Below are positions 6,415 to 59,451 of a stretch of DNA of 59,451 nt, piece by piece. The DNA is from a virus. The position numbers and the translations under genes are program-made. A model generated the notes under the pieces. That model was given only the letters and a program-made list of their open reading frames with translations. It did no database searches and was not told where the DNA came from. Positions within the stretch are counted from its first letter, which is position 1. Every line of letters begins with the position of its first letter. The stretch covers positions 1 through 59,451 of the IMG/VR virus record IMGVR_UViG_3300031281_000002, one strand, 5' to 3'.

Positions 6415-8142
6415 ATGGCAGCTGGTGATTATATAAGATCGATATGGCAAAATGGGCCAGGTGTTGGACATCCTCCAATCAATGAAGATAATTTAAATAA
6501 TATAGAAGAAAAGCTCGAAGAACTTGACGGATTATTAGCTAACACATTTAATTATAGATTTGAAGATTTGAAGAAATATTTCTGGATGAGAAATTGTAAA
6601 GATATAGCTAATTTTGAAGATGACACAGATTGGACAGGGGTAGGTTGTAATGTAGGTGCTGCAAGTGGTCCTAATGCAGGAAATGCAAGTACTGCATTTG
6701 CAGACTCGGATAATGTCGCCTCTACAATTTACATACATAATACTGTTCCAAGCATAAATTTAACAGAATTCAATGATGAAAAAGCTAGTACAACAGATGA
6801 TATAATTAGTTTTTCGGTTCATTTATTTGATTATACAAAGCTAACTAACATAACTGTAAAGCTAGGCGATGATAACGTAGATAATTATAGTTATACATGG
6901 AATGTAACAGAAGGTAAACAGGTTACATTTCAGGCTAAAAAATCAGATTTCGCAACAAATGGAGTACCTAGCGGCTGGAATGATATAACATATATTCATA
7001 TTCAATCGGATACAAAAGCTAATGCAAGTTTTTCATGGATTACTCCAATGGTTTTAACTATGTATAGAAATGACCCTGTAAGCGACGGAGATGGTCAAGC
7101 ATTCCAAATTTATTCAGGAAGTGCATGGAGTAATTTTTTTACTCAGGAAAACAATGCATGGAATTTACTTTTAGATCCTAAAATAAACGACCTAGGCATT
7201 CAAGCATTGGATGATTATAATGACTCAGAAATTTGGGATGGACTAAATGTAAAATCTGATGTAATAAGTTTTTTCTGGAAATCTATAATGCATAACTATT
7301 GTGCTTCTTATACTAATAATATGACCTGGTTTGTTGATGATGATAATTATGCTACAGCCTGGATTGATAATAATGATTTTACATTGTTAATTAATGAAGC
7401 TGGAGTACCTACGGATTACACTTTCACGCTGAATACATCTTTAGCACAAGGAGAAAGGCTTGAAATAACATTAGAAAAAAATGTAGATACAATTAGGGCA
7501 ACATTAGTAAAAGGTAATGAAAGAATTGCTATATTAGAACACGAAACAACTATAGATAGTGAGACAGAAGGAGATTTATACTTCGGGTTTGATGATTTTG
7601 GATTATGCTTTATCCCTGATTTTATTATAAGCAATGTAAACAATTTAGATTTAGATTCATGGGATAGACCTAAAGTTGTCATAAAACAAGCTGATGAGTC
7701 AACTAGCGCAGACACGACTTTGAATGATGATTCTGAATTATATGTATATTTACCACCAAACAGTATGTTTGAAATATTTATGTCTATAGATTATTATACA
7801 AATGCGAATGTAACTCCGGACATAAAAGTCGCTTGGAATTTAACAAATGTAGAAATGGTTACTTATCGAAAGTGTGTAGGACTTGATATTGGAGCAGCTA
7901 CATATTATGGTGATGTAAAAACTTATACAAGAGGTAGTGCAAACGTTATATCTTATGGGGGTTCTGATACAGCAGACGTATATCTACACGCAAATGAAAC
8001 AGCTATAGTTAAAACAAATACAACAGGTGGAATAGTAACGTTGCAATGGGCACAAAGTGCTTCTAATGCAAATGCAACAACAGTAAAAGCAGGTTCTTAC
8101 ATAAAAGCTACAAAATTAGATTTATTACAACAAAATAATTAA
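6415..8142 (+). CDS. Putative receptor-binding / tail fibre protein
   Basis: 575 aa, the largest protein after the hub and the last large tail gene. The N-terminus (GDYIRSIWQNGPGVGHPPINEDNLNNIEEKL) looks like the short helical attachment region of phage tail fibres. The rest is rich in Thr, Asn and aromatic residues and beta-strand patterns, as in carbohydrate-binding tail tips. Four bases separate it from the preceding gene. It is called receptor-binding from position and composition; no depolymerase motif was recognised. Confidence 0.6.
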   Translation: MAAGDYIRSIWQNGPGVGHPPINEDNLNNIEEKLEELDGLLANTFNYRFEDLKKYFWMRNCKDIANFEDDTDWTGVGCNVGAASGPNAGNASTAFADSDNVASTIYIHNTVPSINLTEFNDEKASTTDDIISFSVHLFDYTKLTNITVKLGDDNVDNYSYTWNVTEGKQVTFQAKKSDFATNGVPSGWNDITYIHIQSDTKANASFSWITPMVLTMYRNDPVSDGDGQAFQIYSGSAWSNFFTQENNAWNLLLDPKINDLGIQALDDYNDSEIWDGLNVKSDVISFFWKSIMHNYCASYTNNMTWFVDDDNYATAWIDNNDFTLLINEAGVPTDYTFTLNTSLAQGERLEITLEKNVDTIRATLVKGNERIAILEHETTIDSETEGDLYFGFDDFGLCFIPDFIISNVNNLDLDSWDRPKVVIKQADESTSADTTLNDDSELYVYLPPNSMFEIFMSIDYYTNANVTPDIKVAWNLTNVEMVTYRKCVGLDIGAATYYGDVKTYTRGSANVISYGGSDTADVYLHANETAIVKTNTTGGIVTLQWAQSASNANATTVKAGSYIKATKLDLLQQNN

Positions 8143-8154
8143 AGGAGAAACGGA

Positions 8155-8286
8155 ATGGAAATAGTTACAGGAATTGGAATAGGACTAGTTATGGCTGGAA
8201 GTATAGCCTATGAATTTATAAAAAAGAAAAAAAGAAAAATTAAGGAAAAAGAATTAAAAGAATTAAAAGAAATGAAAGAAATGTAA
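8155..8286 (+). CDS. Small membrane protein with charged tail
   Basis: 43 aa, with GGAGAAACGGA before the ATG. One hydrophobic segment (VTGIGIGLVMAGSIAYEFI) is followed by a very basic, then Glu/Lys-rich helix. It sits just before a two-helix membrane protein at the end of the tail operon, where phages commonly keep haemolysin XhlA- or holin-type proteins. It may be a holin partner. It is too short for a family assignment. Confidence 0.55.
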   Translation: MEIVTGIGIGLVMAGSIAYEFIKKKKRKIKEKELKELKEMKEM

Positions 8287-8299
8287 AGGTTTTGATAAT

Positions 8300-8473
8300 A
8301 TGAATGATAATTTAAAATATATCATACAAGGATTATTACAAGCATTAGTATTAGTATGTATTGTTATCCTTGCATATTTAGGTCTATTTGACCAGGAATC
8401 TATTAAGACTATTTTTTTAATTATTATCGGGTACATTTTCGCAACGGCTAAAAATTCAATAAACAAAGAATAA
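8300..8473 (+). CDS. Holin-like two-helix membrane protein
   Basis: 57 aa with two hydrophobic segments (about residues 6-29 and 37-51) joined by a short polar turn, a class II holin topology. It is the last gene of the rightward tail operon and is followed directly by a strong hairpin terminator. The endolysin gene is not adjacent; it lies 5.7 kb downstream. Role inferred from topology and position. Confidence 0.55.
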   Translation: MNDNLKYIIQGLLQALVLVCIVILAYLGLFDQESIKTIFLIIIGYIFATAKNSINKE

Positions 8474-8500
8474 ATGAGGATTAATATTATTAATCCTCAT
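8474..8500. terminator. Hairpin terminator between convergent operons
   Basis: A perfect 12-bp stem with a 3-base loop begins at the base after the holin-like stop codon. It lies between the rightward tail operon and the leftward operon 9600-8552, so it probably serves both. The T tract after it on the + strand is short (TTTATAAT). Confidence 0.8.
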
Positions 8501-8551
8501 TTATAATGCATAAGGGATCGTAAATATATTTAAAAATAAACACTATATTTA

Positions 8552-9028
8552 TTATACCATATAATCAATTTTCATAATTTCCTTTTCATTTTTTTGATTT
8601 GAAAATATATCATTAAAACAAATTTTAGTTACAAGATATTGGTCATTTGTTTTTATAGAATTTACCCAATGTTTTGATTCTATTCCACTTCTTAAACTGT
8701 ATTGACCATTATCTATATGATAAGCTCTTTCTCTAAATTCTACATTTAATATTTCTTTTATTACTTTGAAATCTTCAGAATTCAATATATCCCAGTCTAA
8801 ATCATTAGCCATTTTATTATATTCTTTGCAAACTATTTCTTTAATCTCATCATTAGATAAATTTTTCATTTTTTCATTACTCCTTGTTTCTTTATAATAT
8901 TTTGTAATTATCATTTCTAAAGTATTGTTTATGCTTCTTTTTTCTTCTGTAGCAATTGTATTTATCATATCAACTACAGATTGTTCAAATCTGTAGCCGA
9001 CTGATACTTTTTTACTTGTATTAGCCAT
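8552..9028 (-). CDS. RHH-domain DNA-binding protein
   Basis: 158 aa. The N-terminal 45 residues (KVSVGYRFEQSVVDMINTIA then RSINNTLEMIITKYYKE) form a ribbon-helix-helix pattern as in Arc/CopG-type repressors; the C-terminal part is unrecognised. It is the second gene of a leftward pair, two bases after the gene at 9031-9600, with GGAGG before its ATG. A regulatory role, possibly on the divergent promoter region at 9650-9770, is inferred. Confidence 0.65.
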   Translation of the reverse strand: MANTSKKVSVGYRFEQSVVDMINTIATEEKRSINNTLEMIITKYYKETRSNEKMKNLSNDEIKEIVCKEYNKMANDLDWDILNSEDFKVIKEILNVEFRERAYHIDNGQYSLRSGIESKHWVNSIKTNDQYLVTKICFNDIFSNQKNEKEIMKIDYMV

Positions 9029-9030
9029 TG

Positions 9031-9600
9031 TTATATTTCCTCCATTATCTTATTATAAATCATTTTTGCTAGTCTTCCAGATTCATCTAAAGACCAAACT
9101 TTTTTGTGAATCATTCCTTGTGTTATCTCAATAAAGCTTGTTGCTTCGCCATTTTTAATTTTAGTTAATCTGTTTAATATTCTGTTATAACTTTTTTCTG
9201 ATTCTTTTACTAAACTCATTGCTTCTTCTGTAATTTCAATATCTTTATAATTATTTATAAATTCTGTTAACATATCATATCTCATATCTATTAATGTTTT
9301 TGCTGAATCAATTTTTTTAATATTTTTTATTGTTGTTTCGATATCAGTTCTGTTTAGGTAATTTAGTTTTAAATCTTCATCAGTATTTTTTAATTGATTT
9401 TCTAATCTAGTAATTATTTTTTCTCTTATGTCTTTTGCCCAATCTACTTGTTTTTCGCTACCTTTTAATTCAACCATTTCATCACTATACAATGATTTCA
9501 AATTTAGTCCGAATTGTACTCTGTAATTTATATTAGTGTATATTTTTGCGTCCTCTCTAGTCATTTTATGAGCTTGTCTGAATAAATTTGATTTAGTCAT
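9031..9600 (-). CDS. Hypothetical protein with a 'QAHK...NYRVQF' N-terminus
   Basis: 189 aa, first gene of the leftward operon. The first 40 residues (MTKSNLFRQAHKMTRE, then TNINYRVQFGLNLKSLY) are clearly paralogous to the 50-aa protein at 18978-19130, and both genes carry the same kind of promoter and a similar leader hairpin. The remainder is helical and charged. The N-terminal motif is one I associate with small conserved Firmicutes phage proteins of unknown function. It is probably regulated together with its short paralogue. Confidence 0.6.
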   Translation of the reverse strand: MTKSNLFRQAHKMTREDAKIYTNINYRVQFGLNLKSLYSDEMVELKGSEKQVDWAKDIREKIITRLENQLKNTDEDLKLNYLNRTDIETTIKNIKKIDSAKTLIDMRYDMLTEFINNYKDIEITEEAMSLVKESEKSYNRILNRLTKIKNGEATSFIEITQGMIHKKVWSLDESGRLAKMIYNKIMEEI

Positions 9601-10944: not shown

Positions 10945-11094
10945 ATGGAATTTTTAAATGGTGTCTGGATGAATATATACAATCCTCATGATTTTTTCCA
11001 AACAATAATATTAATGTTAATAATTTTGGTATCATATTTGATTATGGTACCAAGCAATAAAAAAATAAAAAATATGGAAAAGGAAGGTTTATAA
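10945..11094 (+). CDS. Small single-helix membrane protein
   Basis: 49 aa. It begins at the base after the previous stop codon (TAAATG), with GAGGTG upstream. One hydrophobic helix (IILMLIILVSYLIMV) is followed by a Lys-rich tail. It is the third membrane protein in the row and ends right at the IS605-like end sequence that begins at 11096. Confidence 0.5.
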   Translation: MEFLNGVWMNIYNPHDFFQTIILMLIILVSYLIMVPSNKKIKNMEKEGL

Positions 11095-11095
11095 A

Positions 11096-11215
11096 GTCAA
11101 CTACTCACCACCTACGCTAATGCTTAGAGGTGGGAGCTTGTAACTCATTTACACGAAGTACTAACGACATAAGTCTCCTTCCTCAAACAATGGTTACATT
11201 AGGCTAGTTGACCAT
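11096..11215 (-). mobile_element. IS605-type right-end / omega-RNA-like remnant
   Basis: On the minus strand this stretch reads AAGCTCCCACCTCTAA, then AGGTGGTGAGTAGTTGAC. It is homologous to the right end of the TnpB relic at 17250-17291 (AAGCCCCCACTTCTAA, then AGTGGTGGGTAGTTCAC). In IS200/IS605-family elements this hairpin is the 3' end of the omega-RNA. No TnpB frame remains here; instead an HNH endonuclease gene lies directly upstream on the same strand. Confidence 0.6.
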
Positions 11216-16957: not shown

Positions 16958-17291
16958 ACTACTCACCACCTAAGAGGTAGAACAAGAAGAATCATATACA
17001 AGTAAATCAAGCTTCTTAGACAAAGATAAACTTCCTAAATATAATCCTGAGAGTAAAGAAAAATATAAATTTTCAGGTAGAAGAATATACAGAGGTTTGT
17101 ATAAATCTAAATTAGAAAAAATATTAAATGCGGATGTTAACGGAGCTTGCAACATATTAAGAAAAAGTAAGCAGAATTTCAATTTTGAAAAACTGTGTAG
17201 AGGGCTAGTGGATAGCCCAAAAAGAATAAGGTTAACTTAGATTAGCAAACTTCTTTTGAAGCCCCCACTTCTAAAGTGGTGGGTAGTTCAC
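16954..17291 (+). mobile_element. Deletion derivative of an IS605-family TnpB element
   Basis: The ends are inverted: GTGAACTAC-TCACCACC at the left and GGTGG-GTAGTTCAC at the right. Between them is only the C-terminal third of a tnpB frame, then AAGCCCCCACTTCTAA plus AGTGGTGGG, the hairpin typical of the omega-RNA 3' end. About 338 bp remain of an element normally well over 1 kb, so it cannot move by itself. Removing 16954-17289 restores a full-looking DUF3307 start (MYYNFTIIIFAHYVLDYPLQ from ATG 16939), which marks the insertion point. Confidence 0.75.
16974..17240 (+). pseudogene. tnpB C-terminal fragment
   Basis: About 88 codons without a start. The product has the end of the TnpB nuclease: EESYTSKSSFLDKDKLP, FSGRRIYRGLYKS, ILNADVNGACNILRK (the last conserved RuvC Asp) and SPKRIRLT. 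The N-terminal two thirds, with the other two catalytic acids and the zinc finger, are gone. It is a relic of an RNA-guided nuclease of the TnpB family. Confidence 0.85.
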
Positions 17292-18149: not shown

Positions 18150-18797
18150 ATGAACATTAAAAAATTTTATAATATAAAATGTATTTTAAATAAATATAAT
18201 ATAAAAATTTCTAATGATGGAACTATACTAAACTATAAAAATAAAAAAATAATTTCTAAATTTAATTATAACAATGAAATATTTATTAAAAATTTAAATA
18301 TAAGTTATTTTGATAAATATTTAAAAGATGAATGCGAAGAATTTTTTCTAAAAATAGTTGATAAAATTTTAATAAATATAACAAATTTTAGTTATAAATA
18401 TTTTACGGATATATATTTTCTCACGCATGAAGATTTTAATATTATAAAACCTATACTTATGCCGAATGAAAATATGGATTTTGATGGTATAAGATTAGTT
18501 AACCAAAATATAATATTATCTCATACAAATCAAAAAATAATTTCTTTATTTAGATTAATTTTTCATGAAATAGCTCATAGTTTTTTCAAATGCGAAAATT
18601 TGTTTACAGATGAATTCAATGCAATGAACTTTGAAATAAAGGCACTTAATAAACTTATGGAGGCTATTAGCACAAAATATATAAAATATTCAACAAATCA
18701 TGATAATTATTTACCTTATGATTCAATACATTATAAAGCATATGAAAAGGCATTAAAATTTAATTTAACTGAACAAAACAATTATATAAAAAAATAA
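18150..18797 (+). CDS. Putative zinc metalloprotease (HExxH)
   Basis: 215 aa. LFRLIFHEIAHSFFK has the HExxH zinc motif (H139, E140, H143) in a hydrophobic helix, and 12 residues on is DEFNAMNFE with acidic residues that could supply the third ligand, as in IrrE/ImmA-like and other gluzincin-type phage proteins. ImmA-type proteases cleave phage repressors; here no adjacent repressor is obvious. The N-terminal 130 residues are unassigned. Very A/T-rich even for this genome. Confidence 0.6.
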   Translation: MNIKKFYNIKCILNKYNIKISNDGTILNYKNKKIISKFNYNNEIFIKNLNISYFDKYLKDECEEFFLKIVDKILINITNFSYKYFTDIYFLTHEDFNIIKPILMPNENMDFDGIRLVNQNIILSHTNQKIISLFRLIFHEIAHSFFKCENLFTDEFNAMNFEIKALNKLMEAISTKYIKYSTNHDNYLPYDSIHYKAYEKALKFNLTEQNNYIKK

Positions 18798-18902: not shown

Positions 18903-18931
18903 TTGACAATCAAATATAATTATTATATAAT
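18903..18931 (+). promoter_or_regulatory. Promoter for the nucleic-acid metabolism region
   Basis: TTGACA, 17-base spacer, TATAAT. It is followed at 18936-18958 by a leader hairpin (TTAG-A-GGTT-GAGA-AACC-TA-CTAA) that matches the leader of the leftward gene at 9600. Confidence 0.8.
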
Positions 18932-18977
18932 ATAGTTAGAGGTTGAGAAACCTACTAATTATAAGGGAGATAATACA

Positions 18978-19130
18978 ATGACTAATTCAGAAAGATTTGT
19001 ACAGGCGCACAAAAACACTAGAAAGGCACTTCAAGAAAACACTAACTTAAACTACAGAGTACAATTCGATCTTGAATTAGCAGCAGAAGCAGTTGATTAC
19101 TTATATGAATTATACACAACAAAATTTTAA
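18978..19130 (+). CDS. Short paralogue of the 9031-9600 protein
   Basis: 50 aa. MTNSERFVQAHKNTRKAL then TNLNYRVQFDLELAAEAV lines up with the N-terminus of the 189-aa protein of the leftward operon, including QAHK-x-TR and N-x-NYRVQF. Promoter and leader hairpin are also shared, so the two genes probably descend from one promoter-gene unit. It is the first gene of the long rightward early operon. Function unknown. Confidence 0.7.
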   Translation: MTNSERFVQAHKNTRKALQENTNLNYRVQFDLELAAEAVDYLYELYTTKF

Positions 19131-19145
19131 TTTGGAGGAATGAAA

Positions 19146-19355
19146 ATGGAAAACAAAAAATATATTTTAAACAAACTTTTTGACAAAATCGAAGAATGTA
19201 TTATATTCGAAGATGGTGGATTCGAATATAGAAAAGAAAATGGAGTTTTATACTCCAGACAGGATAAAAAAGAAGAATGGACAACAGAAGATTGGGAAGG
19301 AACTACATCAGATTATAATATCTGGAAAAAACTTTTTGAAAGTTTTATTGACTAA
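19146..19355 (+). CDS. Hypothetical acidic protein
   Basis: 69 aa. Start at ATG 19146, seven bases after GGAGG; ATG 19140 is too close. Rich in Glu, Asp and Trp (EEWTTEDWEGTTSDYNIWKK). No family recognised. It is followed by the first copy of a structured pseudoknot element. Confidence 0.5.
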   Translation: MENKKYILNKLFDKIEECIIFEDGGFEYRKENGVLYSRQDKKEEWTTEDWEGTTSDYNIWKKLFESFID

Positions 19356-19359
19356 TTAG

Positions 19360-19407
19360 CTGTTAGCAGCCATCTAACAGGCGGCTGTTATAGAGTTAAT
19401 TACTCTA
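19360..19407 (+). ncRNA. H-type pseudoknot plus hairpin, copy 1
   Basis: Stem CTGTTAG (19360-19366) with CTAACAG (19374-19380); the 7-base loop CAGCCAT pairs through CAGCC with GGCTG at 19383-19387, forming a pseudoknot. It is followed by a conserved hairpin TAGAGT-TAATT-ACTCTA. The same layout with compensatory base changes recurs at 20400-20447. It lies in the gap before the exonuclease gene, just upstream of its SD. Confidence 0.7.
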
Positions 19408-19430
19408 AATAAAAATTATGGAGGTATAAA

Positions 19431-20054
19431 ATGTTTGTTTTAACAAATAAAAATATTAAAGTTGAGAAGGAAATGACTGGTTATGGAGTGGTGGAAAACT
19501 ATAAGTCGCTAATCGTGTTTGATTGCGAAAGCGATGGATTATATGGAGAATGCTTTGCATTTGGTGCAGTGGCTTTGAAATTATATCCAGACAATAAAGT
19601 ATCAATTATAGAAACAATTTGCTTGACATCAGAGGAAGGAAAGAAAAATATCTCTTCTGATTGGGTAAAAGAAAACGTATTACCACATTTGACAAATTTA
19701 GAAACTGTTCCAAGCAATTTAGAATTAAGACAAAAATTTTGGGATTTTTATTCTAAATATAAAGAAGATGAAAAGTACATTGGTACATATTCAGATGTTA
19801 ACTTCCCGGTCGAAACAAATTTTTTGGCACAAGTTGCTAAAGACGATTTAGAAAAAAGAGCTTTTAGTATGCCGTATCCATTATACGACATATCTAGCAT
19901 ACATAGCGATACAGATACAGATAGAGAAGATTTTTATATAAAAGAAAACGCTTACTTTATAGTGCAGGACGTAGCAATAAGAAAGCCTAAAAAACATAAT
20001 CCATTATGGGATTCGATATGTTCAGCATATTTTCTCTTAAATTATAAGAAATAA
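19431..20054 (+). CDS. DEDD-family 3'-5' exonuclease
   Basis: 207 aa. SLIVFDCESDGLYGECFAFG holds the first acidic pair (D-x-E); further on, IGTYSDVNFPVETNFLAQ and KKHNPLWDSICSAYFLL give the remaining H/D positions expected of RNase T/DnaQ-like nucleases. It probably removes nucleotides from 3' ends. A degraded paralogue lies at 22644-22888. The gene sits between a pseudoknot element (upstream) and a hammerhead ribozyme (its stop codon overlaps the ribozyme's outer stem). Confidence 0.7.
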   Translation: MFVLTNKNIKVEKEMTGYGVVENYKSLIVFDCESDGLYGECFAFGAVALKLYPDNKVSIIETICLTSEEGKKNISSDWVKENVLPHLTNLETVPSNLELRQKFWDFYSKYKEDEKYIGTYSDVNFPVETNFLAQVAKDDLEKRAFSMPYPLYDISSIHSDTDTDREDFYIKENAYFIVQDVAIRKPKKHNPLWDSICSAYFLLNYKK

Positions 20055-20128
20055 TTAACTCTAAGATTCGAAACGGGGTAAAACCCGTCTAGCAGATTAA
20101 CCGCCTGCTACTGATGAGATAGGTTAAT
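20054..20128 (+). ncRNA. Type II hammerhead ribozyme
   Basis: All core elements are present in the order of a type II hammerhead (stem II open). C69-GAA, then stem III ACGGG-GTAAAA-CCCGT, cleavage triplet GTC (cut after 20089), stem I TAGCAG-9 bases-CTGCTA, then CTGATGA and G that closes stem II with C 20069. Stems I and III are perfect. Outer stem II pairs ATTAAC and CT(A) on the left with (T)AG-GTTAAT on the right with bulges. The stem I loop (ATTAACC) is also complementary to GGTTAAT 20122-20128, a likely tertiary contact or alternative fold. It lies between two genes and would cut the polycistronic mRNA. Confidence 0.82.
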
Positions 20129-20148
20129 AAATTTAAAGGAGATATGTA

Positions 20149-20391
20149 ATGTATAAAAATTTTAAAAACAAAGAAACAATAAAAAATTATAGTGAATTTT
20201 GTAATTGGTTAAAACAAAATGATTTAGATTGCAAATATGAAACAAGAATAATAAATAACGATAAAATAGTAATATTTAAGAAAAATGGAAATATGATAAA
20301 TAATGACATGCATTCTTATATGTCTGATAATCCACCTAAAAGCTGGAATATTTTAAAGACATCAATAGAAAAAATAATGAATGCAAAATGA
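20149..20391 (+). CDS. Hypothetical protein
   Basis: 80 aa with AAAGGAG as SD. Lys- and Asn-rich; no domain recognised. It lies between the hammerhead ribozyme and the second pseudoknot element, so its coding segment would be bounded by RNA structures on both sides. Confidence 0.5.
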   Translation: MYKNFKNKETIKNYSEFCNWLKQNDLDCKYETRIINNDKIVIFKKNGNMINNDMHSYMSDNPPKSWNILKTSIEKIMNAK

Positions 20392-20399
20392 ATAATTAG

Positions 20400-20447
20400 C
20401 TGTTAGTACCTATCTAGCAGGTAGGCACTATAGAGTTAATTACTCTA
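20400..20447 (+). ncRNA. H-type pseudoknot plus hairpin, copy 2
   Basis: Same geometry as the copy at 19360: stem CTGTTAG/CTAGCAG (one G-T pair), loop TACCTAT, downstream strand GTAGGCAC, then the identical hairpin TAGAGT-TAATT-ACTCTA. In the register of copy 1, three loop-to-downstream pairs change on both sides (C-G to T-A twice, G-C to C-G) and remain paired, one stays C-G, and one becomes A-C. This supports a real pseudoknot. It precedes the SD of the DHH-like gene. Confidence 0.72.
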
Positions 20448-20471
20448 AATAAAATTATAAGGGAGATTATT

Positions 20472-21848
20472 ATGAAAAATTTATTTAATGGTTCAAGAAT
20501 CGCAATCGAAGAAGAAAACAGAATATATGTACAAGGTGATTATACACCTTGGCATAATGAAGATGAAGATTGTATAGAAGGCCAAGATTGTCCATTAGTT
20601 TACAAAAATTTAGAATTAATTTTAATTGATGAAAATGGACTTTGGTTAGAGCAAAAAACAGATAAATCTTTATTAGAAGACACAACCTGGTGCTTGTATG
20701 AAACTGATTGCACAGGTGTTAAAGAAAATTATCTTGATGCTGAAGTATTGAAAAAAGAATTATGCATTGAAGAAGAGAAAGTAAAAGAAGAATGGACAAC
20801 ATTAACATGCAGCTTATGTGGACAAAGATTTTTATATCATACATCTAACGAATGTAAATGCTCATGTGGTGCAACTCTTAATCTATTTCCTGATGATGTT
20901 AAGATTTTATTAGCACCAACACTTGAAATTGCAAAAACAATTGATGCTGATATTACAATTGAGGCTGAATATGGTGATGAAACGATTAAAGGAACACTTT
21001 ACACATCAGCTCATCATGGTAAAAATCAAGGAAATCCAGCACCGTGTAATGATGATAATATACCAATTATTTTAGAAGGCACTATATTATTGAGCCATTT
21101 AGATTTAGATTCAATAATTGGTTGCATGAGAGCTTTAGGAATTGTACTAGATGAAAGGTTGTCTATGTTAGTAAATGCAATTGAGTATATAGATGTTAAT
21201 GGACCTCACCATCTATATAAATATGGTTGGCAAACTAAAATGTTTTTAAATGCTTATTGGGCTTGGAATTTTTCAAAAGGAAGACAGGAAAGAATTACAG
21301 AACTTACAGATGTTAGACAACAAGTATTAGAAACTATTAATGTAATTGAAGAAATAATATTACAAATGGCTGGAGTAGGAAAAAATGAAATTGATTATAT
21401 TAATGACGGTAAAAAATGGGCTGAAAATGTACAAAAAGAAACTGAATCAAAGCTTAAAAAAGAAACAAAATATTATAGATTGTTTTCAACAGATAGAGTA
21501 TTTTGTGGTGCTTCCTACTATAGCCCGCAAGAAAATACAATTATACCTGCAATAATCAGTTATAACGAAAAATTCAAAGCTATAACATTAAGCTTTGAAG
21601 ATAGTGGAAAGAAGTTTAAGGCTGATGAAATAATGAAAGAATTATTTGGACCTGGTGCAGGTGGTAAATCTGGTATAGCTGGAACGCCTAGAGGAATTGA
21701 ATTTACATTTGAAGATACTCGAAAAGTTATATCAAAGTTAAATTCTTTATACATGAATTGTCAGTGTCAAAATTGTTTTAATACATTCGACACAGATGTA
21801 AATAGTTGTCCAGTATGTGGTAGTCCAGATATATGGTATGGGAGGTAA
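20472..21848 (+). CDS. DHH-superfamily phosphoesterase-like protein with zinc ribbons
   Basis: 458 aa. A zinc ribbon near residues 113-135 (CSLCGQRF, then CKCSCGA) precedes a region with TSAHHGKNQGNPAPCNDDNI and ILLSHLDLDSIIGCMRALG, which resembles the H-x-D-x-D motif of DHH phosphoesterases. Near residue 400, LFGPGAGGKSGIAGTPRG resembles the Gly-rich DHHA1 substrate-binding motif. A second zinc ribbon closes the protein (CQCQNCFN and CPVCGS). A role in nucleotide or oligonucleotide hydrolysis is inferred. It may also be a longer-range relative with a different substrate. Confidence 0.55.
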   Translation: MKNLFNGSRIAIEEENRIYVQGDYTPWHNEDEDCIEGQDCPLVYKNLELILIDENGLWLEQKTDKSLLEDTTWCLYETDCTGVKENYLDAEVLKKELCIEEEKVKEEWTTLTCSLCGQRFLYHTSNECKCSCGATLNLFPDDVKILLAPTLEIAKTIDADITIEAEYGDETIKGTLYTSAHHGKNQGNPAPCNDDNIPIILEGTILLSHLDLDSIIGCMRALGIVLDERLSMLVNAIEYIDVNGPHHLYKYGWQTKMFLNAYWAWNFSKGRQERITELTDVRQQVLETINVIEEIILQMAGVGKNEIDYINDGKKWAENVQKETESKLKKETKYYRLFSTDRVFCGASYYSPQENTIIPAIISYNEKFKAITLSFEDSGKKFKADEIMKELFGPGAGGKSGIAGTPRGIEFTFEDTRKVISKLNSLYMNCQCQNCFNTFDTDVNSCPVCGSPDIWYGR

Positions 21849-22644: not shown

Positions 22645-22888
22645 TGAAAAAAAATATTATGGTGTTTGATGTAGAGTCAAATGGATCATCATGCCATGTC
22701 CATTGATGGATATAGCTAATGTCAACAATATTGACATTGACAGAATAGAATTTTATGAAAAGAAAAATGCTTTTTACATAGCACAGTCACCAGCAACAAG
22801 GAAATTAAGAAAACATAATCCTTTAGATGATGCAATTGCAAGTTTATGTTTAAAGCTTGATAAAATTATTTATTATGATATTAAATAA
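22644..22888 (+). pseudogene. Exonuclease pseudogene with internal deletion
   Basis: The first codons give MKKNIMVFDVESNGSS, the D-x-E start of a DEDD exonuclease, then a stop. A shifted frame continues with MPCPLMDIANVNNIDIDRIE and YIAQSPATRKLRKHNPLDDA, matching the C-terminal 65 residues of the exonuclease at 19431 (MPYPLYDIS, then VQDVAIRKPKKHNPLWDS). Roughly 100 residues between them are missing. An ORF from 22691 could still yield the 65-aa tail, but without the active site. Confidence 0.75.
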
Positions 22889-22934: not shown

Positions 22935-23005
22935 TATAGAATATGATATAATATATTTAGTGTATATAAATGTTTTTTAATTTTCATTAGGATTTCTTTC
23001 TTTCC

Positions 23006-23037
23006 AAAAAGACCTATTCTCCTTGATAGGTCTTTTT
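23006..23037. terminator. Bidirectional terminator
   Basis: AAAAAGACCTAT and ATAGGTCTTTTT form a perfect 12-bp stem with an 8-base loop, with T runs on both strands. It reinforces the boundary before the replication genes. Confidence 0.85.
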
Positions 23038-23062
23038 GTTGTTCTTTTTTATAAATAGAATT

Positions 23063-29814: not shown

Positions 29815-29985
29815 ATGAAAATATATTGTGAATATGGAGAGCATAATGTTAACGAAGAAGAAATAGATATAGGAACTGGGTATATAGTTTGCAAGAGCTG
29901 TATGAAAAAGGTCGATGAAGAAAGGGTAAAGAAAATAGAAAAATATTTTGGTAACGTGCAGAAGTTATCGGTTGACGGCCGATAA
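29815..29985 (+). CDS. Small Cys-containing protein
   Basis: 56 aa, start at ATG 29815. Two Cys pairs (IYCEYGEH and VCKSCMKK) could bind a metal. The last codons and stop are inside the right arm region of a strong hairpin (29961-29989). Confidence 0.45.
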   Translation: MKIYCEYGEHNVNEEEIDIGTGYIVCKSCMKKVDEERVKKIEKYFGNVQKLSVDGR

Positions 29986-29989
29986 CTTC
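29961..29989 (+). promoter_or_regulatory. Strong hairpin overlapping a stop codon
   Basis: GAAGTTATCGG and CCGATAACTTC form a perfect 11-bp stem with a 7-base loop. It is followed by CACAAAAAATAA, not a T tract, so it may block 3' exonucleases or attenuate rather than terminate. Confidence 0.6.
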
Positions 29990-30000
29990 ACAAAAAATAA

Positions 30001-30060
30001 TTTATAAGGGATTTGATTGTTTAATAGTTTATATGATTATACAATCAATTTCCTTATAAA
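30001..30060 (+). promoter_or_regulatory. Long hairpin, 20-bp arms, in the leader of the 30078 gene
   Basis: Two 20-base arms (TTTATAAGGGATTTGATTGT and ACAATCAATTTCCTTATAAA) are complementary except for one T-T mismatch and one G-T pair, around a 20-base loop. With the 11-bp hairpin just before, it makes a tandem structure ending 17 bases before the ATG. Regulatory role inferred. Confidence 0.65.
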
Positions 30061-30077
30061 TCAAGGGGGATTTAGCA

Positions 30078-30269
30078 ATGAGAATTATTTATAATTATAG
30101 TACAGCCGATTGTGAAAACATAGAAGGGTATGAAATTTTACCAGAGGAATTTTATACTCCAGTTACAAAAGTAATGGACATAAATAAGATTGAGGCAGCA
30201 GAATACGAGAACTTTTTAGTAAGTTCAGGATATTATAAAACATTTGATTTTGTAAAGGAGGCTATTTGA
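30078..30269 (+). CDS. Hypothetical protein
   Basis: 63 aa with AAGGGGG as SD, right after the tandem hairpins. Acidic; no domain recognised. It is coupled by one shared base to the ERF gene, so it may be a regulator or partner of the annealing protein. Confidence 0.5.
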   Translation: MRIIYNYSTADCENIEGYEILPEEFYTPVTKVMDINKIEAAEYENFLVSSGYYKTFDFVKEAI

Positions 30270-38248: not shown

Positions 38249-38930
38249 AAATTGTAAAATAACGTTTAGAATGAGCACTCCAATTGCAATTATGGGGTAT
38301 ATATTTTTAGATGCTTTAATATCGGCAGCATGTGCAAAGGAAATGCTTGGTGACGATTATTATAATGGGTTAATGAATCAAAAAGATTTAAATGGTGGGC
38401 ATGAATTTAATACTGATGATTTACCAATATATTTTAATAAGACATTAAATATTTATCATGCAAGTACTGGATTTGGTGATAATTTAGAATCTGTATGCAG
38501 TTGGTCGAAGAGATGGGATAATAAAAATGATAATATTGTAAAATTTAAAGGAAATACAAAAGGTAGAGTTGATATTGGTGCTGGATATTATAAAAATTAT
38601 CATATGCCAATTATAATTAAATCATATAAAAATATATATTTTTATGCAAATTGTGAAATCAAAAAAGTTGAATATCTTTTAAATAAATATATACATTTTA
38701 TTGGAAAAAAACCATCACAAGGCTATGGAGAAATAAAAGAAATAATTGTTAAGAAAATGAATAACGATTATAGCATATGGGATAAATCAAATAATAATAA
38801 ACATATATTAAGACGACCAATTATGGTTTCATCACAAAAGAATAAATTATCAAATAGGATAGAAAAAATATCTGTACGGCCACCATATTGGAGAACTGAT
38901 TATTTGGAATATTGTTATATGCCAGAATAA
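38241..38930 (+). CDS. csf3: Csf3-like Cas5 (RAMP) protein
   Basis: 229 aa. FRMSTPIAIMGYIFLDALIS near the start matches the T-P-I ... L-D-x-L motif of Csf3/Cas5, and KKPSQGYGEIKEI (156-168) is the RAMP glycine-rich loop. DLPIYFNKTLNIYHASTGF also fits the Csf3 layout. In type IV complexes it caps the 5' end of the guide. It is the last gene of the set; the portal gene follows after about 95 bases. No cas6, dinG or CRISPR array was found. Confidence 0.75.
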   Translation: MFENCKITFRMSTPIAIMGYIFLDALISAACAKEMLGDDYYNGLMNQKDLNGGHEFNTDDLPIYFNKTLNIYHASTGFGDNLESVCSWSKRWDNKNDNIVKFKGNTKGRVDIGAGYYKNYHMPIIIKSYKNIYFYANCEIKKVEYLLNKYIHFIGKKPSQGYGEIKEIIVKKMNNDYSIWDKSNNNKHILRRPIMVSSQKNKLSNRIEKISVRPPYWRTDYLEYCYMPE

Positions 38931-39025
38931 ATAAAATTTTAAAAAAGGGATGGATGAAATAGTTAAAATATTAGCATGTTTAGTTGATGATATATACAAT
39001 AAATAAAAAATAGGAGTTGAATAAA

Positions 39026-40510
39026 ATGTTTTTAAGCCAAGGTTCATCATTTCCGCCAAGCGGATTTGGATATTGGTATACAAAATATGACGAGTGGGAA
39101 ACTTGGTATAGTGGTGACCCTGAAAATTTATTGAAATTTTATACTATACTAGCCTTAGGTAATGCTACTGCTCAGGAAAAATTCTGGGCAAGGATGGAAG
39201 AAGAAGACAGAGCAGGTATTATCCATATTCCGGTTGCTGGTGATATTGCAATGACTTCAGCTAATTTATTATTCTCTGAATCACCACGATTTAAATATGA
39301 TGATAAGGCAAAGTCAGGAGAAAGAATCAAAACTTTTTTAGATATAAATGGATTTGAAAATATATTATTAGAAGGTGCCGAACTATCAGCTGCATTATCT
39401 GGCTGTGTATTAAAATTAGATATAGAGCCAAAATTAGAAAAAATTCCTATTGTTTCAATTTTAACACCTAAACAATTTATACCTACATTCTGGCGTGGTA
39501 GATTATGGGAAATATTAATGTTTAGAGTTGTAAAGACAACAGATGCGGGAGCAATATATAGATTGTTTGAAAACAGAAAGAGAGAAAATAATGCATTAAT
39601 TATTGAATACAAGCTACATAAGGGAACTGTTGATAAAGTTGGTAAAGAAATTGGATTTGATGAAATAGAAGAGACTGAAAATTTAAATTTAGAGCCAATT
39701 AGGCATAACAATATAGATGGACTTGGATGTGTCTATATTCCAAATATGAGGCCAAATAAATTAATGCCAGGTTCATATCTGGGAATCAATGATTTTTCAT
39801 CGAGTATAACAATGCTTGATTCGCTTGACTTTGCATGGACTAGCTGGATGAGGGATATCGAACTAGGATTAGCACAATTATTAATTGATGAAGAAATACT
39901 CGAGAAACAAAAAAGCACAACAGGTGGAACTGTTCAATTCTTAAATAAATTCAATAAGTTCAGAAAAGCATTTATAAAATTGAATCTTTCATCCTGGAGA
40001 ATGGGAGGAGAAGGTGGAATAAAACCTATAGAACAGGTCCAGTTTAATATTAGAGTTGATGAACATGCAAAAACATGTGAACAACTATTTTATCAAATTG
40101 TAAATCAATGCGGTTATTCTCCACAAACATTTGGATTAGGAATAGAAGGAAGAGCAGAAAGCGGAACGGCATTGAAACTTAGAGAAGGAAAAAGTCAGGG
40201 TACAAGAAATAAAAAAACGAGATATTGGATTCCAGCTGTAAAACAATTATTATTGCAAATGCAAAGGTTAGATAAGGAATCAGGATTAAATAGTTCGTAT
40301 GATGAGCAAAGTGTATCAATTGAGATTGAGGATTCAATTGCGACAGATGAAAAAGAAGTTTCTGAAACAATCAGAAATCTTGATCAAGCAAGGGCAATAT
40401 CTAATTATACAAAAGTAAAATTACAGCATCAGGATTGGTCAGAAGATGATATTATGGCAGAGGTAAAAAGAATAAATGATGAACAGGGGATTACGGGGGA
40501 AATATTATGA
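39026..40510 (+). CDS. Portal protein
   Basis: 494 aa from ATG 39026 with GGAG upstream. FGYWYTKYDEWETWYSGDPE at the N-terminus, ARMEEEDRAGIIHIPVAGDI, and AESGTALKLREGKSQGTRNK near residue 395 match portal proteins of the Clostridium/Listeria SPP1-like type. The dodecameric portal is the DNA entry channel and docking site for terminase. Normally it directly follows terL; here 3.4 kb of type IV-B-like genes lie between. Confidence 0.93.
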   Translation: MFLSQGSSFPPSGFGYWYTKYDEWETWYSGDPENLLKFYTILALGNATAQEKFWARMEEEDRAGIIHIPVAGDIAMTSANLLFSESPRFKYDDKAKSGERIKTFLDINGFENILLEGAELSAALSGCVLKLDIEPKLEKIPIVSILTPKQFIPTFWRGRLWEILMFRVVKTTDAGAIYRLFENRKRENNALIIEYKLHKGTVDKVGKEIGFDEIEETENLNLEPIRHNNIDGLGCVYIPNMRPNKLMPGSYLGINDFSSSITMLDSLDFAWTSWMRDIELGLAQLLIDEEILEKQKSTTGGTVQFLNKFNKFRKAFIKLNLSSWRMGGEGGIKPIEQVQFNIRVDEHAKTCEQLFYQIVNQCGYSPQTFGLGIEGRAESGTALKLREGKSQGTRNKKTRYWIPAVKQLLLQMQRLDKESGLNSSYDEQSVSIEIEDSIATDEKEVSETIRNLDQARAISNYTKVKLQHQDWSEDDIMAEVKRINDEQGITGEIL

Positions 40511-43905: not shown

Positions 43906-43976
43906 TTAAAATTGCTTAAAGAAAATTTTAAAATAAGAACGACTATAAAATTAATTTATGATATAATATATTAAAA

Positions 43977-44074
43977 TTATATAGATTGCTTTGAACCCTA
44001 CCCAAAGCAATCTATATAAAATAATAAAAGAATCTTATTAATTTTAGGTAGGGACTTAAATTAATAAGATTCTT
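43977..44074 (+). ncRNA. Twin hairpins with complementary (kissing) loops
   Basis: Hairpin 1: a 17-bp perfect stem (43977-43993 with 44003-44019) with loop AACCCTACC. Hairpin 2: a 17-bp perfect stem (44028-44044 with 44058-44074) with loop TAGGTAGGGACTT. CCCTACC in loop 1 and GGTAGGG in loop 2 are exact 7-base complements. CTATATAAAATAA (44012-44024) can also pair with TTATTTTATATAG just before the SD of the next gene, competing with hairpin 1. Together this looks like a folded leader RNA or switch for the AntA gene. Confidence 0.7.
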
Positions 44075-44096
44075 ATTTTATATAGAGGTGATTTTT

Positions 44097-44843
44097 ATGA
44101 AAGAGATGATAAAAGTTAATATGAATAATATAAATAGACCAACTGTATTAGGAAGAGATTTACATAAATTCTTATCAATAAAAACAAGGTATGATATTTG
44201 GTTTGATAGAATGTTAGAATATGGATTTGAACAAGACAAAGATTACTATATTCATGATCAAAAATGTACGCGAATAGGTAAACAAATAAATGAAAAAAGA
44301 ACCATAATTAACCATCAATTAACTTTAAATATGGCTAAAGAAATCGGAATGGTTCAAAGAAATGATACTGGTAAAAAGATAAGAAATTATTTTATAAAAT
44401 GCGAAGACATGCTAAAAGATATAATAAAAAATAAAGAAATTAATAATAATTCTAATGAATGGAAGAAGCTTAGAGCTGAGTCGAAAAGTATTAGATTTGA
44501 AGAAACAAATGAAATACAAAGAATGGTTAAGTATGCTGAAGAAAGTGGATCTGAAAATGCTAATAATTATTACACTCATTTTAGTAAACTGGTTTGGGAT
44601 AATTTATTCTTAATTGAAAAAGGATTTGAAGATATTAAGAATAAAAAAGATATTTGCAATGATAGGCAATTAGCTACAGTAATTCAGGCTGAAAATATTA
44701 TAAGAAAAAGCATAAATGAAGGGCTTAAAAATGAAACTGAATATCATGAAATTTATTATAATACTAGAGATAAAATTAAATTATTAGCGAGTTTGGTAGA
44801 GATAACTAAGATACCTTATTATAGCCAAATTAGCATGATATAA
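44097..44843 (+). CDS. AntA-type antirepressor
   Basis: 248 aa from ATG 44097, SD GAGGTG. LGRDLHKFLSIKTRYDIWFD, YGFEQDKDYYIHDQ, NHQLTLNMAKEIGMVQRNDT and KKIRNYFIKCEDML match the AntA/AntB domain. The C-terminal half is helical and may bind a repressor. Its leader has the twin kissing hairpins, suggesting post-transcriptional control as known for some phage antirepressors. Confidence 0.85.
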   Translation: MKEMIKVNMNNINRPTVLGRDLHKFLSIKTRYDIWFDRMLEYGFEQDKDYYIHDQKCTRIGKQINEKRTIINHQLTLNMAKEIGMVQRNDTGKKIRNYFIKCEDMLKDIIKNKEINNNSNEWKKLRAESKSIRFEETNEIQRMVKYAEESGSENANNYYTHFSKLVWDNLFLIEKGFEDIKNKKDICNDRQLATVIQAENIIRKSINEGLKNETEYHEIYYNTRDKIKLLASLVEITKIPYYSQISMI

Positions 44844-59270: not shown

Positions 59271-59451
59271 TATCCTCAGATTTTTGTCAATGGTTAGAAA
59301 ATAATAATTTTGGTACATATGGTGATGATATATTTGATACGTTTATGCAAGATGCTCCAGATAATTTAATCTTAATTGAGGACGTTTCATCTTTTAGCAT
59401 TCCTGAATCAAGTAGCTTGAAAGTTGACTTATATTCAATAAAAATAACAGC
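59267..59451 (+). CDS. Minor capsid / tail-completion protein (5' part, wraps round the circle)
   Basis: The ATG overlaps the stop of the gp10-like gene. The frame (MISSDFCQWLENNNFGTYGD) runs off the window and continues at base 1 to 350, giving 135 aa. It confirms that the contig closes on itself. Confidence 0.85.
   Translation, partial: MISSDFCQWLENNNFGTYGDDIFDTFMQDAPDNLILIEDVSSFSIPESSSLKVDLYSIKIT
59325..59451. repeat. Terminal direct repeat (right copy)
   Basis: Exact copy of bases 1-127. It should be counted once when the circle is closed. Confidence 0.95.

Follow-up and report, generated by a model that had tools for sequence, protein, structure and literature searches.

A family of intercistronic hairpins with an invariant internal loop in phage accessory operons, proposed as an mRNA-processing element

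The IMG/VR phage record IMGVR_UViG_3300031281_000002 (G000; 59,451 bases, analyzed in full and referred to below as the window) carries two copies of a structured RNA element in the gaps of an accessory-gene operon. The element is a single long hairpin interrupted by a conserved, asymmetric internal loop, with GUUAG on its 5' side and AUAGA on its 3' side. It belongs to a real RNA family that lacks an Rfam counterpart and occurs in Staphylococcus-type phages and in a small group of Firmicutes-like phage contigs. We give about an even chance to the reading that it is a cis-acting, intercistronic mRNA-processing element of phage accessory operons, which would be cleaved and thereby generate a structured 5' end. 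The record has an exact 127-base direct terminal repeat (positions 1-127 are identical to 59325-59451), so that G000 probably represents a full phage genome assembled as a circle; judging from the related phages, its host would be a member of the Firmicutes.

An initial annotation of the window had reported two copies of a folded RNA, and both are present, occupying positions 19353-19407 and 20393-20447 of the plus strand once the whole element is counted. The copies are 83% identical across about 70 nucleotides (nt), and the constant 23-mer TATAGAGTTAATTACTCTAAATA occurs exactly twice in the window, compared to 0.02 occurrences expected. Their hairpins have z-scores of -4.6 and -3.6, and none of 200 shuffles was equally stable. 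In copy 1, the outer stem (P1) pairs 19353-19361 with 19394-19402 and the inner stem (P2) pairs 19364-19374 with 19380-19390 around an apical loop at 19375-19379, the internal-loop motif being GTTAG at 19362-19366 and ATAGA at 19390-19394. In copy 2, P1 pairs 20393-20401 with 20434-20442 and P2 pairs 20404-20414 with 20420-20430, with GTTAG at 20402-20406 and ATAGA at 20430-20434. Each copy ends about 13 nt upstream of a Shine-Dalgarno sequence (GGAGG at 19420-19424 for the open reading frame at 19431-20054 and GGGAG at 20461-20465 for that at 20472-21848, all on the plus strand), in agreement with the initial annotation, which placed each copy just before a ribosome binding site.

The element is not confined to the window. 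Scanning with the exact core identified it in three related contigs (G002, G003, and G004), and a second copy in G003 was recognized through genome comparison. Outside these contigs, searching IMG/VR and 85,000 genomes for the exact core returned only chance matches in coding regions. A low-threshold BLAST search with copy 2 yielded a weak match in Staphylococcus phage Machias, where the same architecture lies between two genes. Further Staphylococcus and Mammaliicoccus phages carry the element, including Twortvirinae (among them Kayvirus), Sextaecvirus and jumbo phages, as does one phage labelled Arcanobacterium. The initial annotation had suggested a covariance model as a check, and the model that we built from 18 copies (R2) recovers further homologues. 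R2 matched 12 of the 13 Staphylococcus-type phage records, with 1-4 copies per genome, in addition to the window and G002-G004, and several matches from outside the alignment had E-values of 1e-12 to about 1e-3. Five phages possess three or four copies within a few kilobases. Family members were not found in the plasmid collection, and the element is absent from the C. difficile phages that have the first gene of the operon.

Searches of Rfam 15 found no family at its gathering score in the window, nothing related near the copies at E up to 10 and nothing related at E up to 5 across the 13 Staphylococcus-type phage loci. The earlier statement that the RNA matches no known riboswitch thus extends to a structured RNA without a counterpart in Rfam 15. 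The passages retrieved from a paper on the Staphylococcus phage K transcriptome describe no such element. Two intergenic minus-strand hairpins of G001, an unrelated 148-kb phage, have a similar layout (one at 118353-118420, also delimited as 118359-118419, and one at 111160-111219), with a similar outer stem and a UAGAG hairpin ahead of the start codon. Their membership is doubtful, because they lack GUUAG and score only 29 bits with R2; they could be distant relatives or products of convergence.

The best fold of both window copies is one nested hairpin that consists of the 9-base-pair (bp) P1, the internal loop, P2 and a 5-nt apical loop. P1, which is TAATTAGCT/AGTTAATTA in the window fold, is missing from the model of the initial annotation, where each copy was drawn as an H-type pseudoknot. 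The paired changes reported for the pseudoknot loop were verified, with C-G to T-A, G-C to C-G and C-G to T-A at loop positions 1, 3 and 5, no change at position 4 and a mismatch at position 2. These pairs, however, lie within P2, in a helix continuous with P1. The 7-bp stem of the pseudoknot, CTGTTAG:CTAACAG, joins the apical loop to the 5' side and competes with the nested fold. In the six window-type copies, the nested form folds at -18.7 to -22.7 kcal/mol, compared to -4.1 to -13.5 kcal/mol for the earlier stem plus 3' hairpin, and the gain in stability, 5 to 18 kcal/mol, is found in all six. In addition, no pair of the 7-bp stem has changed on both sides, and the stem is disrupted in G004 by the loss of three of its seven pairs. 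The pseudoknot is therefore unsupported.

Both stems of the nested fold covary. Across the 18 copies, 97.8% of P1 cells are paired and five pairs show two-sided changes, in 22 cells. The covariation score of P1 is 0.463 compared to 0.192 when shuffled (0 of 500 shuffles reach the observed score), and versions slid out of register score at most 0.08. Variants of P1 such as TTAATCATT/AGTGATTAA, TAATTAGCT/AGTTAATTA and TTTAATAGTT/AATTATTAAA all remain paired. P2 is more variable (e.g., GGCTACCTA, GAACTACCAGG, and GGCTTGCCGA), and single positions show as many as six pair types; over 28 copies it is 88% paired, a fraction lowered by about three of the 28 rows being parsed in the wrong register, compared to a mean of 58% for re-dealt arms. 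While both flanking helices vary, the loop is invariant in GUU.G (5' side) and AUAGA (3' side). An invariant loop, covarying P1 and P2 and a position before a ribosome binding site characterize the family, on the basis of the 18-copy alignment and of R2. As several pairs are G-U, the opposite strand is predicted to fold poorly (-6 to -15 kcal/mol, compared to -18 to -22 kcal/mol for the coding strand), which makes the coding-strand RNA the most likely functional form. All copies inspected between annotated genes occupy gaps that measure about 75-90 nt before the next start.

The 3' strand can also form an alternative hairpin (H3), in which it folds from the UAGA of the internal loop with its own downstream flank into a UAG...CUA structure just before the ribosome binding site (19391-19396 with 19402-19407 in copy 1; 20431-20436 with 20442-20447 in copy 2). 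For the six window-type copies, folding predicts little or no H3 as long as P1 is present; masking of the 5' strand raises the probability of H3 to 0.90-0.99, a level matched by no more than 1% of spacer shuffles. For most of the Staphylococcus copies, masking is predicted to give the same switch, with H3 gaining pairs. H3 is preserved by differing flanks, i.e., AGAGU/ACUCU, AGAGUG/CACUCU and AGUGAU/AUCACU, the last with a bulged A.

The two copies lie in an operon that starts at a sigma-70-type promoter (TTGACA-17-TATAAT, 18903-18931; 12 of 12 consensus matches) and closes with an intrinsic terminator (23005-23038; 14-bp stem and T run), both on the plus strand like all of the operon features given below. 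The primary transcript is expected to begin with a leader hairpin, UAG-AGGUU-GAGA-AACCU-A-CUA (18937-18957; -6.7 kcal/mol), whose topology is common to the leaders at window positions 9689-9600 (minus strand) and in G002 and G004 and whose bulged A is also found in several Staphylococcus H3s. Between the two copies is a genuine type II hammerhead ribozyme (20069-20128); the initial annotation had already recognized a hammerhead there. Rfam Hammerhead_II gives it 26.2 bits (E 8e-4 when the search covers the 111-base gap), which does not reach the gathering score of 37. Its core is intact, with CUGAUGA, GAAA, closed stems I and III and the cleavage triplet, and its type II pseudoknot pairs ATTAACC of loop I (20096-20102) with GGTTAAT of the tail (20122-20128) over 7 bp, which 31 of 5000 shuffled tails equal. 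Cleavage is expected at 20089/20090, and the predicted 3' product would start with UAGCAG...CUGCUA. No other hammerhead was found in the related contigs. Three devices, i.e., the promoter leader, the hammerhead product and the H3 of the element, would therefore give messages starting with UAG...CUA shortly before a ribosome binding site. We favor processing mainly on account of this convergence, which is suggestive but falls short of proof.

In the proposed mechanism, the hairpin, with about 20-25 bp and the loop UGUUAG/AUAGA, sits between a stop codon and the next ribosome binding site. An endonuclease, either a host RNase III-like enzyme or another that recognizes the loop, would cut at the conserved loop, and the upstream message would then end near a stable hairpin. 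Once the 5' strand is gone, the 3' strand is predicted to refold into H3, beginning at the UAGA of the loop, so that the downstream message would start with a UAG...CUA hairpin that protects its 5' end and keeps its ribosome binding site accessible. The neighboring hammerhead would do the same job through self-cleavage, and the promoter leader would make such a 5' end directly. Consistent with the structure of an RNase III site, for which about 20 bp or more are expected, the hairpins have 20-23 pairs on the coding strand between genes that should be cotranscribed, as the operon is bounded by the promoter and terminator. The processing or translation-control role suggested in the initial annotation fits the structured RNA, its homologues, its position and the hammerhead, and it is partly supported.

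Several observations weigh against processing. The UAG...CUA likeness of the hammerhead product is short, prone to coincidence and drawn from a single ribozyme. H3 is weak or lacking in RQ1 and in the third copies of PT1-4 and DH5. Scans with R2 found no copy in S6 or in SPO1, and the early mRNA of SP82, a relative of SPO1, has RNase III sites. Internal loops conserved in sequence are unusual in plain RNase III substrates, and the loop therefore suggests a more specific partner, which could be a specialized nuclease or a bound protein; self-cleavage is the least likely option. A bolder version, to which we attach a low but appreciable probability, is that the GUUAG/AUAGA loop is the cutting site of a novel process, by a small ribozyme or by a dedicated sequence-specific nuclease or partner, that phages would interchange with hammerheads and that would give every accessory-operon gene the same UAG...CUA cap hairpin at its 5' end.

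The main rival to processing, which we consider unlikely, is a ribosome-driven bistable switch that would couple translation of adjacent genes. With no ribosome at the upstream stop, the outer stem would form and the freed CUCU would pair with the Shine-Dalgarno sequence, while a ribosome terminating on the 5' strand would allow H3 to form and thereby open the downstream gene. RNA-unfolding coupling is an accepted model (PMC12548453), and the upstream stop codon overlaps P1 or is within about 10 nt. In the six window-type copies, the outer stem has a probability of 0.92-1.0 when free, and masking of the 5' strand increases not only H3 but also Shine-Dalgarno accessibility, from 0.2-0.5 to 0.6-1.0. 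The masking of the Shine-Dalgarno sequence is, however, worth only 0.8-3.9 kcal/mol, and most Staphylococcus copies do not show it; release of the Shine-Dalgarno sequence by H3 is energetically modest and clear in the window-type copies only. The switch also leaves the invariant internal loop unexplained. That loop would be accounted for if it were the site of a phage or host RNA-binding protein that represses or stabilizes the message without cleavage, as loop residues that stay constant within helices of variable sequence typically indicate recognition by a protein and multiple copies per operon would permit coordinated control. No candidate protein was found, and a protein site explains neither the preservation of H3 nor the hammerhead in an equivalent gap; we regard this explanation, too, as improbable.

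We consider it very unlikely that the element is a new small self-cleaving ribozyme with the internal loop as its active site. In favor of this are its gap, which is of the same type as that of a self-cleaving hammerhead, and its roughly ten conserved nucleotides flanked by two helices. The small ribozymes known so far, however, need a fold more complex than one internal loop, and the apical loop shows no conserved tertiary partner.

Similarity between phages often spans the element and only one of its neighbor genes. The upstream gene is common to copy 1 and G003 and the downstream gene to copy 2 and G002, while G002 and the second G003 copy have neither in common. Because shared flanks are often one-sided and, in five of the six window-type copies, the 5' strand contains stops in every reading frame, gene exchange at the elements is part of their history, with the elements marking the joints of accessory-gene swaps. 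The same stops, together with a conserved block that reaches from a stop codon to the next start codon and connects unrelated genes, could be expected of a merely repeated DNA segment, a recombination cassette or a palindromic operator that does not function as RNA. To this we give only a slight probability in view of the G-U strand asymmetry, the helix covariation and the lack of any promoter called inside the elements; no intrinsic terminator was called at the copies either. Finally, the H-type pseudoknot of the initial annotation, for which CTGTTAG of the window copies could pair with CTAACAG or CTAGCAG, is practically abandoned on energy and on a stem lacking covariation, as stated above, as well as on geometry (stems of 7 and 5 bp connected by loops of 0, 2 and 2 nt are sterically implausible) and on the Staphylococcus copies, which keep GUUAG and have an unrelated apical loop. 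With no two-sided change in stem 1 and a preference for the nested fold, the element likewise does not qualify as a preQ1-like riboswitch.

The first gene of the operon is an open reading frame (ORF) of 50 aa (18978-19130), the family of which is also found in G003, G004, window positions 9031-9600 (minus strand) and C. difficile phages. Upstream of copy 1 is a 71-aa ORF (19140-19355) whose stop codon forms the first three bases of P1. It is followed by a 207-aa ORF (19431-20054) that is weakly RNase H/exonuclease-like (phrog_2259, E 0.0012), an 80-aa ORF between the hammerhead and copy 2 (20149-20391) and a 458-aa ORF (20472-21848), the N-terminus of which has a homologue in the gene that follows the copy in G002. 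Positions 22691-22888 hold a partial C-terminal duplicate of the 207-aa ORF (52% identity over 52 residues), apparently a remnant. A second cassette on the minus strand (9689-8467) shares the promoter leader hairpin, and its first gene is a paralogue (51% identity); it ends in a palindromic terminator and contains no element.

Other structured leaders are present in the window. Before an AntA/Rha-type antirepressor gene (ORF 44088-44843), positions 43970-44090 contain two long adjacent hairpins (z -8.5) with perfectly complementary loops, CCCUACC/GGUAGGG. The homologous gene of G004 (7879-8619, minus strand) has hairpins of unrelated sequence with loops that are again complementary, UCGCAUC/GGUGCGA, and the antirepressor is possibly under kissing-loop control. 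A short and a long hairpin precede the ribosome binding site of ORF 30078-30269 (29960-30077), and the homologous genes of G004 (10977-11150) and G002 (18431-18580) have hairpin pairs that are likewise placed and unrelated in sequence. A TnpB-like C-terminal fragment, recognized by eye from the motif NADVNGACNI, lies at 16982-17291 and shows DNA similarity to G003 38801-39101.

With this analysis, Staphylococcus phages gain a well-supported RNA family that Rfam 15 lacks; among them are Kayvirus and further Twort-like phages of a type under development for therapy. The family offers a testable answer to how the polycistronic messages of these phages are divided and stabilized. If cleavage is confirmed, self-cleaving ribozymes, protein-cut hairpins and promoter leaders would be interchangeable makers of the same mRNA 5' end, which would help explain the recurrence of hammerheads between phage genes.

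Among known systems, the early promoter and stem-loop (PeSL) cassettes of T4-type phages are likewise mobile intergenic stem-loops that accompany gene shuffling. The element differs from them in having no promoter inside, in its sequence and in its occurrence in Firmicutes phages. The early RNase III sites of T7 (R0.3-R1.3) resemble it more in form, being, as R1.1 illustrates, coding-strand hairpins of about two helical turns between early genes. Their helix is also interrupted mid-way, and processing at the element, as at these sites, would give mono- or dicistronic messages (PMC4858673). In contrast to the T7 sites, the internal-loop sequence of the element is conserved over many phages, its 3' strand has a conserved alternative hairpin and its cleavage is predicted. 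As in the RNA-unfolding coupling of phage f1 VII/IX and MS2 coat/lysis, a structure that starts at the upstream stop could hide the next ribosome binding site (PMC12548453); unlike in these cases, the masking is weak and is not conserved outside the window-type phages. Hammerheads flanking phage genes have been proposed to process long phage transcripts (PMC3088659). The element lacks the hammerhead core but occupies the same gap position as clustered type II hammerheads, one genuine case of which lies between the two window copies.
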